Of a DNA stretch of 35,780 nucleotides, positions 26,170 through 33,192 are shown piece by piece. The notes under the pieces are model-generated. The model did not search any database, had not been told where the DNA came from, and saw only the letters and a list, made by a program, of their open reading frames with translations. The stretch is from Akkermansia muciniphila (GTDB lineage Bacteria > Verrucomicrobiota > Verrucomicrobiia > Verrucomicrobiales > Akkermansiaceae): contig CAMCCX010000024.1 of NCBI GenBank assembly GCA_945873305.1, positions 1 to 35,780 on the forward strand, written 5' to 3'. The position numbers and the translations under genes were made by a program. Every line of letters starts with the position of its first letter. Position 1 is the stretch's first letter.

Positions 26170-28616
26170 ATGAAATCCGCAACTCTCACCGCTTTTTTGC
26201 GTCTGACGGCTGGCGGGCTGGCGGGCAGGGGGGCAGGGGGGCGACGTTTCATTTTCCACCGAGATCCAGCCGATCCTGTCGAACAAATGTTATTACTGCC
26301 ACGGGCCGGACGGCTCGAAACGCGAGGCCGGCTTGCCGCTCGGCACCTTCGAAGGCGCGACTGCGGTGATCGAAGAATCCAAGGCCCGCGCCATCGTTCC
26401 CGGCGATCCGGCGGCCTCCGAAATGATCCGGCGGACGGACCCGAAGGAAATCATGCCGCCGCCGCAATCCCACCTCACGCTCGGCCCGGACGAGGCGGAG
26501 CTGTTGGAGAAATGGATCCGACAAGGCGCGAAATACGAGAAGCACTGGGCCTTCACCCCGCTGCCCGCTTCGATCTCACCGGGCTGCCCCCGACGCCGGA
26601 GGAAATTTCCGCTTTCGAGGCGACGAAATTCGAAACCGCCGTGGACCGCCTGCTCGCCTCGCCGCATTTCGGCGAGACGATGGCGCTCGATTGGCTCGAC
26701 GCCGCGCGCTACGCGGATTCTTACGGCTATCAGTCGGACTTGCTCAGCGGCCAGTGGCCGTGGCGGGACTGGGTGATCCGCGCGTTTAACGAAAATTTAC
26801 CTTACGACCAATTCACGACCTGGCAGCTCGCCGGCGATCTTTTGCCCAACCCCACCCGCGATCAGAAGCTCGCCACCGCCTTCAACCGCCTGAACTGCAT
26901 GACCCAGGAAGGCGGCTCGATTCATGAGGAATACCGCGTCGAGGGAGTTTCGGACCGCGTCCATACCTTCGGCACCACCTTCCTCGCTCTGACTCTCGAA
27001 TGCTGTCGCTGCCACGATCACAAATACGATCCGATCAGCGCGCGGGATTATTATTCCATCGGCAGCTTTTTCAATTCCATCGCCGAGCGCGGCGTTTACT
27101 CGGACCAGAAAATCACGCCTGGCCCGGCGCTCATGCTGCCCACGCGAGCCCAGGAAGTGGAAATCCGCGACGCCGAAAACGCCGTTTCAGCCGCACTGCC
27201 GCAGACGCCCGCCCCGCCGGATCGCGTCGCCTTGTTTGATTTCGAGCCAGCGGAAAAACCCGAGGTTTCCCCGAACGGTGTCGATGGCCCGGCGAAGGAA
27301 GCGAAAATCAACGGCCTGAAAACCACCGCAGTCCCCGGCGGCCGCGCCATGGTGCTCGACGGCGACCAGGGGATTTCCATCCCCGGCCTGCTCACCGCAG
27401 ACTGGCCGCAGCCGTGGACGGTGGATCTCGTGCTCCGCGACACCGCGGCCAATCCCGAGCCGGTCGTCCTCTGGCAGCGCACTTTCGGCACGGACGCCGG
27501 CTACAACGGCTACGACTGCACGCTCGCCGGCGGCCGGGTCGAGGCCCGCATCGCCCGCGACTGGCCGGGCTCGGCGGTGGGCGTCATCACCGCGCCGGTC
27601 GTCGGAAAAGACCAATGGCACCGCGTTTCCGTGACTTGGGACGGCTCCGGGCGCGCGGCCGGACTGGCGGTTTATGTGGATGGAAAACCGGTGCCAGTGG
27701 AAATCACCACCGACCGCCTCCGCCAATCGGTGATCGACCGGATTTATGGTTCCGGAGATTTCACCCTCGGCGAACGTTTCCGCGACCGTGGCTTCCGCGG
27801 CGGTGAAATCGATTCGCTCGGCGTCTTTGATAGCGCGCTCTGCCCCTCGGACATCGCGGAACTCCCACAGCCGGGAAAAACCGAGCTCGCCGTCGTTCCT
27901 CCACAAATCCGCGAGGCGCGGGAAAAACTTCGTGCCGCGCGGCAGAGGCTCGTCGAAATCGAAAGCAAGGTGCGGACCGTCGCCGTGATGGACGAAACTC
28001 CGGTGCCGCGGCCGACCTGGATTCTGCCGCGCGGAGATTACAGCACGCCGCACACGCCGGAAAACGACGTCGCCCGCGACACTTTTTCCCAGATCCTGCC
28101 GCCTTTCCCCGCCGACGCGCCGCGCGACCGGCTCGGCCTCGCCCAATGGCTCACGCAGCCGGACCACCCGCTCGCCTCGCGGGTGTTCGTCAACCGCGTC
28201 TGGCAGCGCTTTTTCGGCACCGGACTGGTCCCGACGTCTGATAATTTCGGCTTCCAAGGCACCGCGCCGAGCCATCCGGAACTGCTCGACTGGCTCGCCC
28301 GCGATTTCGTTTCGCACGGCTGGGACGTGAAACGCCTGTGCCGCCAGATCGTCCTCTCCGCCACCTACCGGCAGGACTCGCGCCTGCGCCCGGAGCTCCG
28401 GGAAAAGGACCCTGCGAATGTTTTGTTCGCCCGCGGACCCGCCCGCCGCCTCGCCGCCGAGCCGGTCCGCGACCTCGCGCTCGCCGCTTCCGGCCAGCTC
28501 GTTTCAAAAACCGGCGGACCTCCCGTTTCACCCTATCAGCCGGGGCCGGACCTCTGGCGCGAATCGAACTCGATGTCGCCCGCCTATCAGCAATCCAAGG
28601 GCGACGACCTCCGCCG
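26170..28616 (+). pseudogene. Broken PSCyt1-DUF1549-LamG-DUF1553 gene
   Basis: Intact members are about 1000-residue exported proteins of Planctomycetes and Verrucomicrobia, with a cytochrome-like domain thought to aid polysaccharide or sulfatase-linked metabolism. Three lesions are visible. First, the signal peptide (MKSATLTAFLRLTAGG) is in one frame, but the cytochrome part with the CYYCHG heme motif is in the next; the switch is at two runs of six G (26229-26241). Second, at about 26560-26568 HWAFTPLP joins directly to RFDLTGLPPTPEE in another frame, so about 45-50 residues are missing. Third, after [14 protein letters not shown] (about 28608) the DUF1553 end is missing and DUF1501 sequence follows. 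Between the lesions the DUF1549, LamG-like (about 27220-27850) and DUF1553 parts look well kept. Confidence 0.85.
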
Positions 28617-29705
28617 CACACCGCCGGCATCGCCGACGAGCTTTGCATCGTCAAATCGATGTTCACCGAGGCGATCAACCACGATCCGGCGATCACCTTT
28701 TTCCAAACCGGCTCCCAACTCGCCGGCCGCCCGTCGATCGGCTCGTGGCTCTCCTACGGTCTCGGCGCCGCCAACTCGAACCTGCCGTCGTTCATCGTCC
28801 TCGTCTCCGCCGGCCAAGGTGACCAACCGCTCTACTCGCGCCTGTGGGGTTCCGGTTTCCTCGACTCGAAATACCAAGGCGTCCAGTTCCGCCCCGGCAA
28901 GGACCCCGTTCTCTATCTGAGCAATCCCGACGGCATCTGCCAGTCCGGCCGCCGCGCGATGCTCGACCGGATGAACGAACTCAACCGCGTGCAGTTCGAA
29001 AAAGAGCTCGATCCGGAAATCGAGTCCCGCATCGCCCAGTATGAAATGGCGTTCCGCATGCAGACCAGTTTGCCGGACATCACCGATCTCGGCAGCGAAC
29101 CGGAAAGCACCTTCGCGATGTACGGCGAGGACAGTAAGAAACCCGGAACCTTCGCCGCGAACTGCCTGCTAGCCCGCCGCCTCGCCGAGCGCGGCGTGGG
29201 CTTCATCCAACTCTATCACCAGGGCTGGGACCAGCACGGCAACCTGCCTTCGTCCATCCGCGGCCAGTGCAAGGAAACCGACCAGGCCTCCGCCGCCCTC
29301 GTCCGCGACCTCAAACAACGCGGGCTGTTGGAAGACACGCTCGTCGTCTGGGGCGGTGAGTTCGGCCGCACCGCCTACTCGCAGGGCGCGCTCACGAAGG
29401 ACAACTACGGCCGCGACCACCATCCGCGCTGTTTCACCATCTGGATGGCCGGCGGCGGCGTGAAACCCGGCATCACCTACGGCCAGACCGACGCCTACGG
29501 CTACAACATCGTCGGTGCCGACGGGAATCCCATCTCACCGGACAAGCACCACTACGAACCCGGAGCCGTCCACGTCCATGATTTGCAGGCGACCATGCTG
29601 CATTTGTTAGGAATCGACCACACCATGCTCACCGCCACCCACCAGGGCCGGCGCTTCCGGCTGACGGACGTGCACGGGAAAGTGGTGAAAGAACTCCTCG
29701 CCTAA
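28617..29705 (+). pseudogene. DUF1501 protein gene lacking its 5' part
   Basis: From about 28617 the sequence reads [20 protein letters not shown], which in DUF1501 proteins lies well over 100 residues from the start. The twin-arginine-like signal and first domain are absent. The rest is well kept to the stop: [48 protein letters not shown] and the final [21 protein letters not shown]1501 proteins are sulfatase-like exported proteins usually encoded next to a DUF1549/DUF1553 gene, as here. The frame is open upstream to 28338, but only by running through the neighbour's remnant in a wrong frame. The last base pairs overlap the convergent SDR gene by 4 bases. Confidence 0.85.
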
Positions 29706-30703
29706 CGAGTCGCGGCCGGCAGCCAGGCGCGCGCGCCGGTGCTCCGCTCCGCCGCCGCCTTGAAAAACCCTTCCAGGCCCCGCCGCCCGTGCAGGTCCGC
29801 CACCGCGTCCACCGTGCGGCCCCAGCGCCAGCGGAACCCGGCGTCACGCAGCCGGACGGAATCCGCCCAGCGGCTTTTCGTGACGAGTTCGGTTTCCGTC
29901 CCCATGAAACGCGCGCCGATTTCCAACATCCACTTGGTGGCGGGCAATCCGAGCGGCATGCCCACCGCCTCGCGGAAGGTGCGCATCCACTCGCGGTTCG
30001 TCGGGAACTCCGGCGCGGTGACATTGATCGTGCCGTCGAGAAACGGATCGTTGATCGCGAAGTCCACGGCTCTTAAAAAATCCTCCATGTGGATCCAACT
30101 GATCCGCTGCTTGCCCCCGCCCATCGCCCCGCCGAGGCCGAGGGCGGTTAGTTTTCTCAGCACGTCGTAAACCGTCGCCTCCTCGTTCGCCAGCACCATG
30201 CCGATCCGCAATGCGAGCTTGCGTGTTTCCGCGGGGATCTCCGCGCCGAAAAACGCGTCCTCCCACGCCTGCGCCACCTCGCAGGAAAACCCCTCGCCGG
30301 GCTCGCCCAGCCAGTCGTTCTGCGGCTGGTCCTCGGCATGGCGATACCACGTCGCGGTGCTCGCGTTGAGCCAGGTTCTCGGCGGCGTCTTGCAGCCGGC
30401 GATGGCCTCGCCGATCACGCGCGTGGAGTCCACCCGCGAACCGATGATTTCCCGGCGGTTCTTTTCCGTGTAGCGGCAGTCCACGCTTTTGCCTGCTAGG
30501 TTGATCACCGCTTCCGCGCCTTCCAGCGCCAATGCCCACGGGCCGATGTTTTTGCCGTCCCATTCGAGAAACATCCCGTCGCCGCTCCAGCCCTCGCGGC
30601 TGCGGCCGATGGCGACAACCTCCTTGCCATTGCGGGCGCAGTGACGGGTTAGGTAACGGCCAAGAAATCCATTGGCTCCGAAAATCACGATCACAGGGTT
30701 CAT
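29702..30703 (-). CDS. TIGR01777-type NAD(P)-dependent epimerase/SDR protein
   Basis: This 333-residue protein has the Rossmann loop [20 protein letters not shown] at the start and the TIGR01777/YfcH/SDR39U1 hallmarks: [77 protein letters not shown] and [18 protein letters not shown]. The C-terminal DUF1731-type segment is also present. Substrates of this family are not settled. ATG at 30703 has GGAAG five bases upstream. ATG at 30736 (MDGNKNNTEAS) is an alternative, only 6 bases from the operator-like palindrome at 30743-30762. It lies downstream of the GbsR-type regulator gene and is probably controlled by it. Confidence 0.88.
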
Positions 30704-30742: not shown

Positions 30743-30762
30743 TTTTCAGAAAACTCTGAAAA
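30743..30762. promoter_or_regulatory. Operator-like palindrome ahead of the SDR gene
   Basis: TTTTCAG-AAAACT-CTGAAAA has the same 7-base half-sites and the same 6-base spacing as the perfect palindrome at 31308-31327. Both sit directly upstream of a start codon of genes on the minus strand. It is a likely binding site of the GbsR/MarR-type regulator. Confidence 0.7.
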
Positions 30763-30783
30763 CAGGGCTTGAAAAAATTCAAC

Positions 30784-31305
30784 TCATCCGAGCAGTTTGG
30801 TGGCGAGTTGCAGGGCGAAGCCGTGCTTCATCGAGGCGATGCGGTCGGACATTTTCGACGCGAAACTCACGAAATCCTCGAGCGCCCGCATCTGGTCGTG
30901 GAACGCTTTTCCTTCCGGCGTTTCGATCCCCTCGCTCACCTCGGCGCACTTGTGAAGGAGCGCCAGCGCCGGCTCGATCTCGCGGCGTTTCCGCTCGCGG
31001 GCGACGATCGTGAAAATCTGCCAAACGTCCTTCTCCGCCTCGAAAAAGTCGCGGCGCTCGCCCTTTTTCACCACCGGGCGGAGCAGGCCCCAGGCGACCA
31101 ATTCCTTGAGATTTGAATGGGCGTTGCCGCGGCTGATTTCCAGCTCTTCCATCACCTCGTCCGTCGTCAGCGGTTCCGGCGCGGTCATCAGCAACGCGTG
31201 GATCTGGGCCATCGTCCGGTTGATGCCCCACTGCGAGCCGAGCGCGCCCCACTGGGCCACGAACTCGTCGCGGGCTTGTTTGAGTTTTTCGGTTTCGGCG
31301 TTCAC
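30784..31305 (-). CDS. GbsR/MarR family transcriptional regulator
   Basis: This 173-residue protein has a winged-helix domain in its first 95 residues: WGINRTMAQIHALLMTAPEP, LTTDEVMEELEISRGNAHSN (the recognition region) and LRPVVKKGERRDFFEAE as the wing. A helical C-terminal half follows, ending SMKHGFALQLATKLLG. The order and the 'G-x-N-R-T-x-A-Q-I-x-A-L-L' start match the GbsR subgroup, which in Bacillus controls choline/betaine genes. The ligand here is unknown. The start codon is GTG at 31305, two bases from a perfect 20-bp palindrome, so it probably represses itself. The SDR gene lies downstream with a matching palindrome. Confidence 0.88.
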   Translation of the reverse strand: MNAETEKLKQARDEFVAQWGALGSQWGINRTMAQIHALLMTAPEPLTTDEVMEELEISRGNAHSNLKELVAWGLLRPVVKKGERRDFFEAEKDVWQIFTIVARERKRREIEPALALLHKCAEVSEGIETPEGKAFHDQMRALEDFVSFASKMSDRIASMKHGFALQLATKLLG

Positions 31306-31307
31306 GG

Positions 31308-31327
31308 TTTTCAGTAATTACTGAAAA
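31308..31327. promoter_or_regulatory. Perfect 20-bp operator-like palindrome at the regulator start
   Basis: TTTTCAGTAATTACTGAAAA is a perfect palindrome ending two bases from the GTG start of the regulator gene on the minus strand. A TTGCCG-like -35 element lies about 15 bases upstream, so the TAATTA centre could overlap the -10 region. This fits autorepression. A second copy with the same half-sites is at 30743-30762. Confidence 0.75.
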
Positions 31328-31461
31328 TCCAGGAGCGGCAAGCTAAAATTGCACCGCTGCCAAAATCTCTCGCGGCCATCGCCAAAATCAGATACTAGCA
31401 AGTAATGGATAGATTTCGGCTTTTTGCCGTTCCATCCAGCCAGCACGACCCCCTAACCACC

Positions 31462-33192
31462 ATGAAACATTGCCACCACTCCGTTCCCGTTATCCGCATT
31501 TCCCCCCCTGAACGGCATGCGCGAGCATGGCTCGGCGTCTTGTGCGTCGTGGGAAGTGCCTTCACCCAAGCCGCTCCCGTCGCGATCACCGGAACGGGAA
31601 ACTACTCCCAGAACTTCGACACGCTGCCTGCCAGCGGGTCCGCCACTTGGGCCGATGACTCGACCGTTCCGGGATGGTATTCCCAACGAAGCGGCGGTTC
31701 CGGTAACTCCATCGTCGCGGACGCCGGCTCTGATACGGCGGGAAATCTCTACAGCTACGGCTCCGCCAGCACTGCGGAACGGGCGCTCGGTTCAATCGGT
31801 GCGGGCACCCCCACGGCGGGAAATTTCGCCCACGGCGTGCAGCTCCAGAACACCTCCGGCGAGGCCGCGACTCTCAATTCCCTGGCCTACACCGGCGAGC
31901 AATGGCGGAAGGGTGGCGAGACCGTGGCGCAGGTCGTCACGCTCTGGTATAAGATCAGCCCGACGCCTATCACTTTGCTGGTGCCCTCGGCCGATGCCGG
32001 CTGGACTGCTGTTGCAGCTGGAAATTTCAGCAGCCCGGTGAATACGAGCACTGGAACGTCTCTTGACGGCAACGACTCGGCCAACCGCACGGCGATTTCA
32101 ATCAATCCGAATATCTTCGTCCCGGCGGGCAATTACCTGATGATCCGTTGGAAAGACCTGAATCATGACGGCGACGATCATGGCCTGGCCATCGACGACG
32201 TTTCGCTCGCATGGATCGCCAGTCCGGTCATCAGCCTGAGCCCCGGCGCGATCGCCTTTGTCGGCTTCAGCGCGGATGGCAACGACGACCTCGCCTTCGT
32301 CGCGCTGGCTCCCATCGCGGAAAACGCTGTGATCCGGTTTACTGACAACGCGTGGAATGGCTCTCTGGTGGGGGCTGGCGGCGCATTTCCCGCCACAGAA
32401 GGCGTCGTCACATGGACGGCACCCGCCGGAGGCGTGGCCGCTGGCGAGGTGATCAGTCTCAACAACCTTTCATCATCGATCCGAAGTGCCAGCGTTGGAA
32501 CCGTCACCAGCTCCTCCGGGAATCTGAATCTCAATGTCGAAAATGAGACTGTTTACGCCTATCAAGGAGACGTGCTCACGCCCACGGGTTTCCTCGCGAT
32601 GATCGCCACCCATGACGGCGACTCCACGACGGGCACCGGTTTGAGTCCAACGCACATCATTCGTCTCCCGGACGATAGGGATGTCGCGGCTTACAACGGC
32701 TCCCGCTCCAATCAGGCAGATTTCGCGGCCTACCTTTTGCTACTCGGCGACACCGGCAACTGGCTAACCGAAGACGGCACCGGCGACCAAAATGTCAACG
32801 GCAACGCGCCGGACGTCCCGTTCTCCGCCACCGCCTTCACCGTGACGGGCGGAAATACCTTTGCTTCCTGGCTCGCCGCCAACGCCCCGAACGAAACCGC
32901 GGCGCAGGATCACGACGACGACGGCCTGCCGAACGCGGTCGAGTATTTCATGGGAACCGCGGGAAACGCCTTCACCGCCCATCCGGGAATCGTTGACGGC
33001 GCGGTTTCCTGGCCACGCGCCGCCGGCACGACGATCTCCGCGTTCAGGGTGGAAGTCTCGACCAGTTTGGACACATGGGAGGATGCGAACATCAGCTACG
33101 CGGCAAACCTGAGCATCGGTAACAGCCAGGTCGTCTTCACCCTGCCGGGCGGTCCGCAGAAAATCTTCGTCCGCCTCAACGTGGCTCCGTGA
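31462..33192 (+). CDS. Secreted multidomain protein without PEP-CTERM tail
   Basis: ATG at 31462 (MKHCHHSVPVIRI) gives a 576-residue protein with a signal segment (AWLGVLCVVGSAFTQAAPVA). The first domain (about residues 40-250) runs from GNYSQNFDTLPASGSATWAD to HGLAIDDVSLAW and resembles the body of the PEP-CTERM protein at 8575-9303. The second (about 255-455) starts ISLSPGAIAFVGFSADGNDD. The C-terminal part, TFASWLAANAP, AQDHDDDGLPNAVEYFMGTA, then GPQKIFVRLNVAP, is a module I associate with large exported verrucomicrobial proteins; its DHDDDGLPN is a calcium-binding-like loop. No enzyme motif was recognised. It probably is surface-bound or released. Confidence 0.78.
   Translation: MKHCHHSVPVIRISPPERHARAWLGVLCVVGSAFTQAAPVAITGTGNYSQNFDTLPASGSATWADDSTVPGWYSQRSGGSGNSIVADAGSDTAGNLYSYGSASTAERALGSIGAGTPTAGNFAHGVQLQNTSGEAATLNSLAYTGEQWRKGGETVAQVVTLWYKISPTPITLLVPSADAGWTAVAAGNFSSPVNTSTGTSLDGNDSANRTAISINPNIFVPAGNYLMIRWKDLNHDGDDHGLAIDDVSLAWIASPVISLSPGAIAFVGFSADGNDDLAFVALAPIAENAVIRFTDNAWNGSLVGAGGAFPATEGVVTWTAPAGGVAAGEVISLNNLSSSIRSASVGTVTSSSGNLNLNVENETVYAYQGDVLTPTGFLAMIATHDGDSTTGTGLSPTHIIRLPDDRDVAAYNGSRSNQADFAAYLLLLGDTGNWLTEDGTGDQNVNGNAPDVPFSATAFTVTGGNTFASWLAANAPNETAAQDHDDDGLPNAVEYFMGTAGNAFTAHPGIVDGAVSWPRAAGTTISAFRVEVSTSLDTWEDANISYAANLSIGNSQVVFTLPGGPQKIFVRLNVAP

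Follow-up and report, generated by a model that had tools for sequence, protein, structure and literature searches.

In a stretch of 35,780 nucleotides from Akkermansia muciniphila (hereafter the window, i.e. the whole stretch of DNA that was analysed), we have detected a GbsR-type regulator that we consider, with a probability of about 85%, to be the autorepressor of a small membrane and thiol regulon that extends beyond the two-gene circuit of the initial annotation. The protein would act as a dimeric repressor binding the sequence TTTCAG-N6-CTGAAA. One site would overlap the regulator's own promoter and confer autorepression, and the other would lie ahead of an SDR gene; the bound protein would keep both genes off until a signal releases it. 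As relatives across the phylum keep this arrangement, the on/off circuit is very probably real and part of a larger conserved regulon. In these relatives the regulon would comprise the SDR, a DCC1-like thiol-disulfide oxidoreductase, a 128-aa membrane protein and a desaturase, to which some lineages would add isoprenoid and other membrane genes. In the own genome of the window, it has seemingly shrunk to the SDR gene and a third site, which adjoins a degenerate gene.

A pattern scan of the window recovered two exact TTTTCAG-N6-CTGAAAA motifs, at 30743..30762 and 31308..31327, with the equal half-sites and spacing already described. The site 31308..31327 (TTTTCAGTAATTACTGAAAA), proposed as the operator of the regulator gene, is indeed a perfect 20-bp palindrome, and two bases separate it from the regulator's GTG start codon (31305-31303, minus strand). 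The site 30743..30762 (TTTTCAGAAAACTCTGAAAA), the proposed operator 5' of the SDR gene, has matching half-sites around an asymmetric 6-bp core (AAAACT). This second site is localized 21 bp past the regulator's stop codon and, as the initial annotation had stated, upstream of the SDR start codons: 6 bp ahead of the first in-frame ATG (30736) and 39 bp ahead of the ATG at 30703, the start favoured by homologues. The exact palindrome is present twice in the window and in none of 100 dinucleotide shuffles. When three mismatches are allowed the window count is still two, a value reached by 33 of 100 shuffles and not significant, and the case made from the window therefore rests on the exact matches.

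The own genome assembly (3,055,467 bases in 171 contigs, 95% complete) contains three exact sites, against none for the reversed control. Many copies scattered in coding sequence, which had been named as an argument against operators, are thus not observed. The looser pattern TTTCA-N8-TGAAA is found at seven places including these three (control, 0). The third exact site is on contig C14 (41555-41574), between lnt and a gene remnant, about 97 bp ahead of the former and about 30 bp ahead of the open frame of the latter. This frame (L001, region 1501-2170) matches the second half of PEMT and is weakly DCC1-like, all scores being below the cut-offs (PEMT, 24.2 vs 25 bits; DCC1-like, 17.1 vs 27.8 bits, E 0.013), and it was detected solely via its operator-like site. 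The latter seems to be an operator retained after the loss of its target gene. No DCC or small membrane protein was found in the own genome at E <=0.001. The circuit had been called complete with two genes; the site on C14, and the further genes found behind the site in relatives, extend it beyond that.

The regulator (30784..31305, minus strand; 173 aa, GTG start) displays a MarR-type winged helix domain (PF12802, MarR_2, 33.4 bits for a cut-off of 27). The protein MJ223 (1ku9) is the top hit both of its structure model with Foldseek (E 5.2e-9; mean pLDDT 91.2) and of its sequence with phmmer (E 6.7e-14), Bcav_2135 being the other nearest solved structure by sequence and fold. Domain and fold support the assignment to the GbsR type within the MarR superfamily. 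In the model, residue 58 would be situated just ahead of the helix 59-72, which we take as the recognition helix, and Cys120 towards the end of the long helix 94-124. The hope that the pairing of regulator and SDR would reveal the physiological signal was not borne out: the model of the choline regulator CudC (NF047500) gives 49.8 bits, far under its cut-off of 218 bits, and, among the regulators studied, the closest by operator is the cytochrome bd repressor CydE. Given this score, and as no osmoprotectant gene was noticed among the targets, both the CudC equivalog and choline or osmoprotectant control were rejected as labels.

The regulator does not adjoin cydAB or cydDC; the next gene in the window encodes a TIGR01777-type SDR with the NAD-dependent epimerase fold (29702..30703, minus strand, alternative start 30736; PF01370, 57.2 bits). 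Its TIGR01777 score of 205.6 bits (E 1.2e-60) is just under the NCBIfam cut-off of 207.35, and its nearest solved structure by sequence is SDR39U1 (4b4o, E 4e-25). The C-terminal DUF1731, which we take to be a feature of TIGR01777 SDRs, scores 21.4 bits in the window SDR for a cut-off of 27, a threshold reached by the relative L065 (32.8 bits). To our knowledge, neither the TIGR01777 SDRs nor their human relative SDR39U1 have a settled substrate. Downstream, the region 26170-29705 of the window contains frames that are presumably DUF1549/DUF1553-like and DUF1501-like. They overlap out of frame at about 28338-28920 and the frame switches again near 26.5 kb, which corresponds to a decayed or fused gene pair or to assembly errors. 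On the other side, a gene for a large secreted-looking protein (31405-33192) is divergent from the regulator, so that its promoter region could be reached by the operator of the regulator as well. Members of its cluster are present in 10 of 34 loci compared.

Binding, repression and promoter overlap are expected by analogy with the CydE footprint and from the positions of the sites. For the regulator promoter, a -35 hexamer TTGCCG (31336..31341, minus strand) and, after a 17-bp spacer, a -10 hexamer ATTACT (31313..31318, minus strand) inside the operator are proposed from reading by eye. The upstream stretches of 77 relatives aligned on the site reveal a modest CTTGC-like block about 15 bp ahead of it (T at -14 in 75% of sequences, the following T, G and C at 45-48% each), and at this spacing a -10 element would fall inside the operator. 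A protein bound at its own promoter and ahead of the SDR would hold both genes off. A strict promoter scan of the window gave no promoter on the right strand for either gene, and no good -35 hexamer was seen by eye for the SDR. With promoter positions so deduced and the SDR devoid of a good -35 by eye or by strict scan, one may suppose that the regulator is an activator or a dual regulator of the SDR gene rather than a plain repressor. We judge this clearly improbable, since the sites abut start codons or sit at the expected -10 position and since CydE, CioR, GbsR and OpuAR are described as repressors (PMC6096048, PMC11837568, PMC6207618).

At least 80 loci of named genomes were retrieved with an alignment of 17 rows, and the 80 listed, with 58-95% identity in the best segment, are referred to as relatives. 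In the whole order, 122 of 141 genomes match the regulator at E <=0.001, with many paralogues; 52 matches have >=50% identity, 30 of which were displayed. For each relative, the best match to TTTCAG-N6-CTGAAA was retained as a site when it had at most two mismatches in the 12 arm positions. The upstream interval comprised the 120 bp that precede the regulator match and its first 15 bp, and the downstream interval the 150 bp after the match. The intergenic regions, whose comparison had been suggested in the initial annotation, keep the upstream site in 77 of the 80 relatives listed (reversed control, 1/80) and the downstream site in 50 (control, 0/80). Upstream, 29 of these relatives have no mismatch, 39 have one, nine have two and three have more, the latter being the loci without site (L117, L161 and L173). 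The corresponding downstream numbers are 16, 31, 3 and 30. The rest of these loci yielded 50 hits in 814,698 positions vs 33 for the control. The sites are conserved, and associated with the regulator and with its putative target genes.

In the roughly 6 kb that follow the 80 listed regulators, on the same strand and with flanks that differ in length among loci, homologues of the SDR were found 34 times, of the small membrane protein 34 times, of the DCC1-like protein 32 times and of the desaturase 7 times. The second site was compared with the presence of a regulon gene within 160 bp, a crude cut measured to the start of the protein match, in 77 loci (L100, L152 and L174, with <300 bp of flank, were excluded). 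Site and gene are both present in 40 loci, the gene alone in 12, the site alone in 7 and neither in 18. The second site therefore accompanies 40 of 52 loci with a regulon gene and 7 of 25 without (Fisher p 5.7e-5), a p-value to be used as a guide only because closely related rows are not independent. The overlapping SDRs of L109 (without site) and L123 (with site) escape this cut, which places L109 among the loci with neither and L123 among those with the site alone. Among the seven loci with the site alone, L123, L159, L166 and L172 have a regulon gene overlapping or further on, and L141, L145 and L148 have none. In 11 of the 12 loci with the gene alone, this gene is within 47 bp, a distance expected inside one operon. 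The loss of the palindrome in relatives that keep the gene pair, regarded in the initial annotation as contrary to the circuit, does occur for the second palindrome: it is missing in nine of the 52 loci, where the regulon gene is an SDR within 43 bp, and in L109, a tenth case outside the 160-bp cut, whose SDR match overlaps the end of the regulator. The upstream palindrome is nevertheless kept in eight of these nine loci and in L109, which fits one operon under one operator.

Outside the regulator loci, a pattern with an AT core and at most two mismatches was searched in 18 genomes of the family. It is found at one to six places per genome, G106 apart (33 places), for a total of 92 vs 11 with the reversed control, or 59 vs 9 when G106 is removed. 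In G106, contigs C6 to C158 carry more than 20 identical or near-identical copies of TTTCAGAAATTAGTGAAA, on either strand and many near contig ends; these copies form a family of repeats in which an operator-like palindrome is present by coincidence. This repeat, together with the non-significant window count at three mismatches, is what could be advanced for palindromes due to chance, to a repeat element or to transcription terminators. Such an origin has a close to negligible likelihood: shuffles never gave the exact matches, the own genome has three copies, position and sequence are kept in relatives, and no terminator-like site was found in the window. Terminators or a repeat at the window sites were rejected from the terminator scan, the pattern search in the 18 genomes and the conserved position in relatives.

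Of the 27 places listed outside the regulator loci, G106 aside (G120 and G140 are not represented among them), 20 were examined in addition to the C14 site. Eleven of these 20 are localized ahead of DCC1-like genes (L195, L196), of a membrane protein and DCC (L199), of an SDR (L200), of a desaturase at 180 bp (L197), of a membrane protein of about 300 aa (L198, L202, L204) and of a polyprenyl synthase (L201, L203, L209). Three sites with two mismatches to the AT-core pattern precede ispH (L205, G129), a phosphatidylserine decarboxylase gene (L206, G077) and an NmrA-type gene (L210, G091), and six are inside other putative open frames (L207, L208, L211-L214). Conversely, in the 18 genomes, 11 of 13 DCC homologues (E <1e-10) have a site within 500 bp upstream; L325 has it at the operon head, 803 bp away, and no site was found for L330 nor for the weak homologues L332 and L333. 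The membrane protein of about 300 aa has a site with at most two mismatches in 4/4 homologues. The polyprenyl synthase has one (at most one mismatch) in 4/17 orthologues alone, which weakens it as a core target. The 141 genomes of the order contain 22 exact 20-mers. Ten of these have an AT-rich core (at most one G/C) and are found at a regulator, an SDR, a DCC gene or the C14 remnant; for the other 12, none of the genes sought is present in the stretch examined. In the next families, 16 genomes were scanned for exact arms and have zero to four places each. Through this gene set, delimited by the operator and conserved in Verrucomicrobiota, the TIGR01777 family is linked to a DCC1-like oxidoreductase, a desaturase, a membrane protein and some isoprenoid steps, and the role of the family is therefore open to test in cultured relatives.

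A sister GbsR clade mostly carries TTTCTG-N6-CAGAAA. Among 28 paralogues of Verrucomicrobiota with Ala at the position of residue 58, 16 have TTTCTG in both halves and five have TTTCTG with a G-type second half. We have compared residue 58 with base 5 of the operator half-sites over 133 regulators. Ser58 is found with A in both halves in 77 regulators and with G/A in 10, and Ala58 with T/T in 20, with T/G in five and, against the pattern, with A/A once (L293). The remainder consists of five regulators with mixed halves, 14 without site within one mismatch (11 Ser, 3 Ala) and one row without the residue. A quick tree, which gave long-branch warnings, included from the relatives every third of the 75 (of 80) having a site within one mismatch, L231 and L295 being dropped. 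In this tree, residue 58 changes twice and the operator three times, and the CydE-type rows (Ser and A/A) are separated from the window clade by Ala rows. Only two independent pairs are available, on average 1.8 agreeing and none being opposite (p 0.5); the agreement is therefore suggestive and does not constitute a test. The paralogue pair, which differs by one base per half-site and by residue 58, is possibly a small natural case of co-change of regulator and operator.

These data bear on the alternative that an unlinked regulator, other than the adjacent one, controls both genes through the palindromes. MarR-type sites of this size are common, and for this clade the binding of the adjacent regulator is a prediction. 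We nevertheless hold an unlinked regulator to be very improbable, as the site accompanies the regulator gene in all but three of the 80 relatives listed, a change of base 5 of the operator mostly goes with one of residue 58 in the adjacent protein, and the GbsR-type CydE is reported to bind the same palindrome (PMC6096048).

The Ala-type loci have an SDR homologue downstream in 16 of 28 cases, and a T-type palindrome (at most one mismatch) in the 300 bp past the regulator in 11 of 28, nine of them with the SDR, in a count made without control. Layout and target thus seem common to both clades. By eye, similar-looking multi-pass membrane proteins, presumably wax-synthase-like, are encoded behind the T-type regulators of L218, L219, L220, L226 and L234 and behind the A-type regulator of L159, and targets may therefore move between the paralogue systems. 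In L227-L229, which belong to small genomes of this family (genus g2), the SDR-like protein encoded behind an Ala-type GbsR regulator is a different one, palindrome-like sites are seen before and after this regulator, and the frame after the SDR-like protein is one that we take to be IspG-like. L230 also has the SDR-like protein, with a different next gene.

Cys120 is conserved in 78 of the 80 relatives listed and is the sole cysteine in 52 of them. It is also found in 8 of 11 further Ser-type rows; in the other group, which includes L231 (not Ala-type by residue), 23 of the 29 rows have it. Regulators of the OhrR kind are single-cysteine thiol sensors of the MarR superfamily with a conserved reactive cysteine. 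The conservation of Cys120 and the DCC1-like thiol-disulfide oxidoreductase among the targets suggest that a thiol signal is possible for the regulator. A broader and tentative reading, rather unlikely in our opinion, is that Verrucomicrobiota possess two sister GbsR systems sharing the operator-regulator-operator-target layout and the SDR target, with half-sites TTTCAG or TTTCTG set by the Ser or Ala ahead of the recognition helix. The Cys120 members would respond to a signal that is thiol-reactive or a lipid peroxide, and would induce a module for membrane repair made up of the SDR, the DCC1-like oxidoreductase, the membrane protein, the desaturase and isoprenoid steps. If true, it would give the TIGR01777/SDR39U1 family a physiological role.

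In the open-licence literature searched, we found no description of this clade, of its target set or of the paired half-sites, no paper joining TIGR01777 with DUF393 and none joining GbsR, operator and palindrome. The operator itself has a precedent in one GbsR-type repressor, CydE of Alishewanella sp. WH16-1. Its reported DNase footprint covers TATTTCAGAAATTTCTGAAAGTTCA, which contains TTTCAGAAATTTCTGAAA, the same TTTCAG-N6-CTGAAA palindrome as the window sites; a second footprinted site is unlike the first, and the effector is sulfate (PMC6096048). CydE and CioR of Chromobacterium violaceum are GbsR-type proteins like the window regulator; unlike it, they control cytochrome bd and not SDR or DCC genes. 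As in the window, the regulator gene is reported to head its own operon (PMC11837568). The CydE type was represented in our comparison by seven plasmid proteins and not by the CydE and CioR sequences: six are annotated beside cyd genes and L236 was assigned by clade alone. Of 182 plasmid records with a match, 13 were examined. The same palindrome is found with regulators 34-50% identical to that of the window, beside cydAB or cydDC, in L237-L240, L243 and L297, and with one mismatch at the unannotated locus L236, whereas L235 (beside DUF4166/SDR genes) and the unannotated L241 and L242 have TTTCTGTCATGACAGAAA. The seven CydE-type proteins all have Ser at the position of residue 58, as the window regulator, and unlike it none has a cysteine at position 120; in the quick tree, the window protein falls in another clade of 37 rows (SH-aLRT 100). 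GbsR, OpuAR and OpcR of Bacillus belong to the same family and their fold was modelled on MJ223 (PMC6207618); their context, unlike that of the window regulator, is glycine betaine synthesis or transport. Finally, CrtR of Corynebacterium glutamicum is reported to be a MarR-type (pfam12802) autorepressor of an isoprenoid operon that is released by isoprenoid pyrophosphates (PMC5401885). It resembles the window regulator by its MarR-type autorepression and differs by its requirement for a TTAA-containing site. With isoprenoid pyrophosphates for CrtR and sulfate for CydE, the effectors vary among such regulators.
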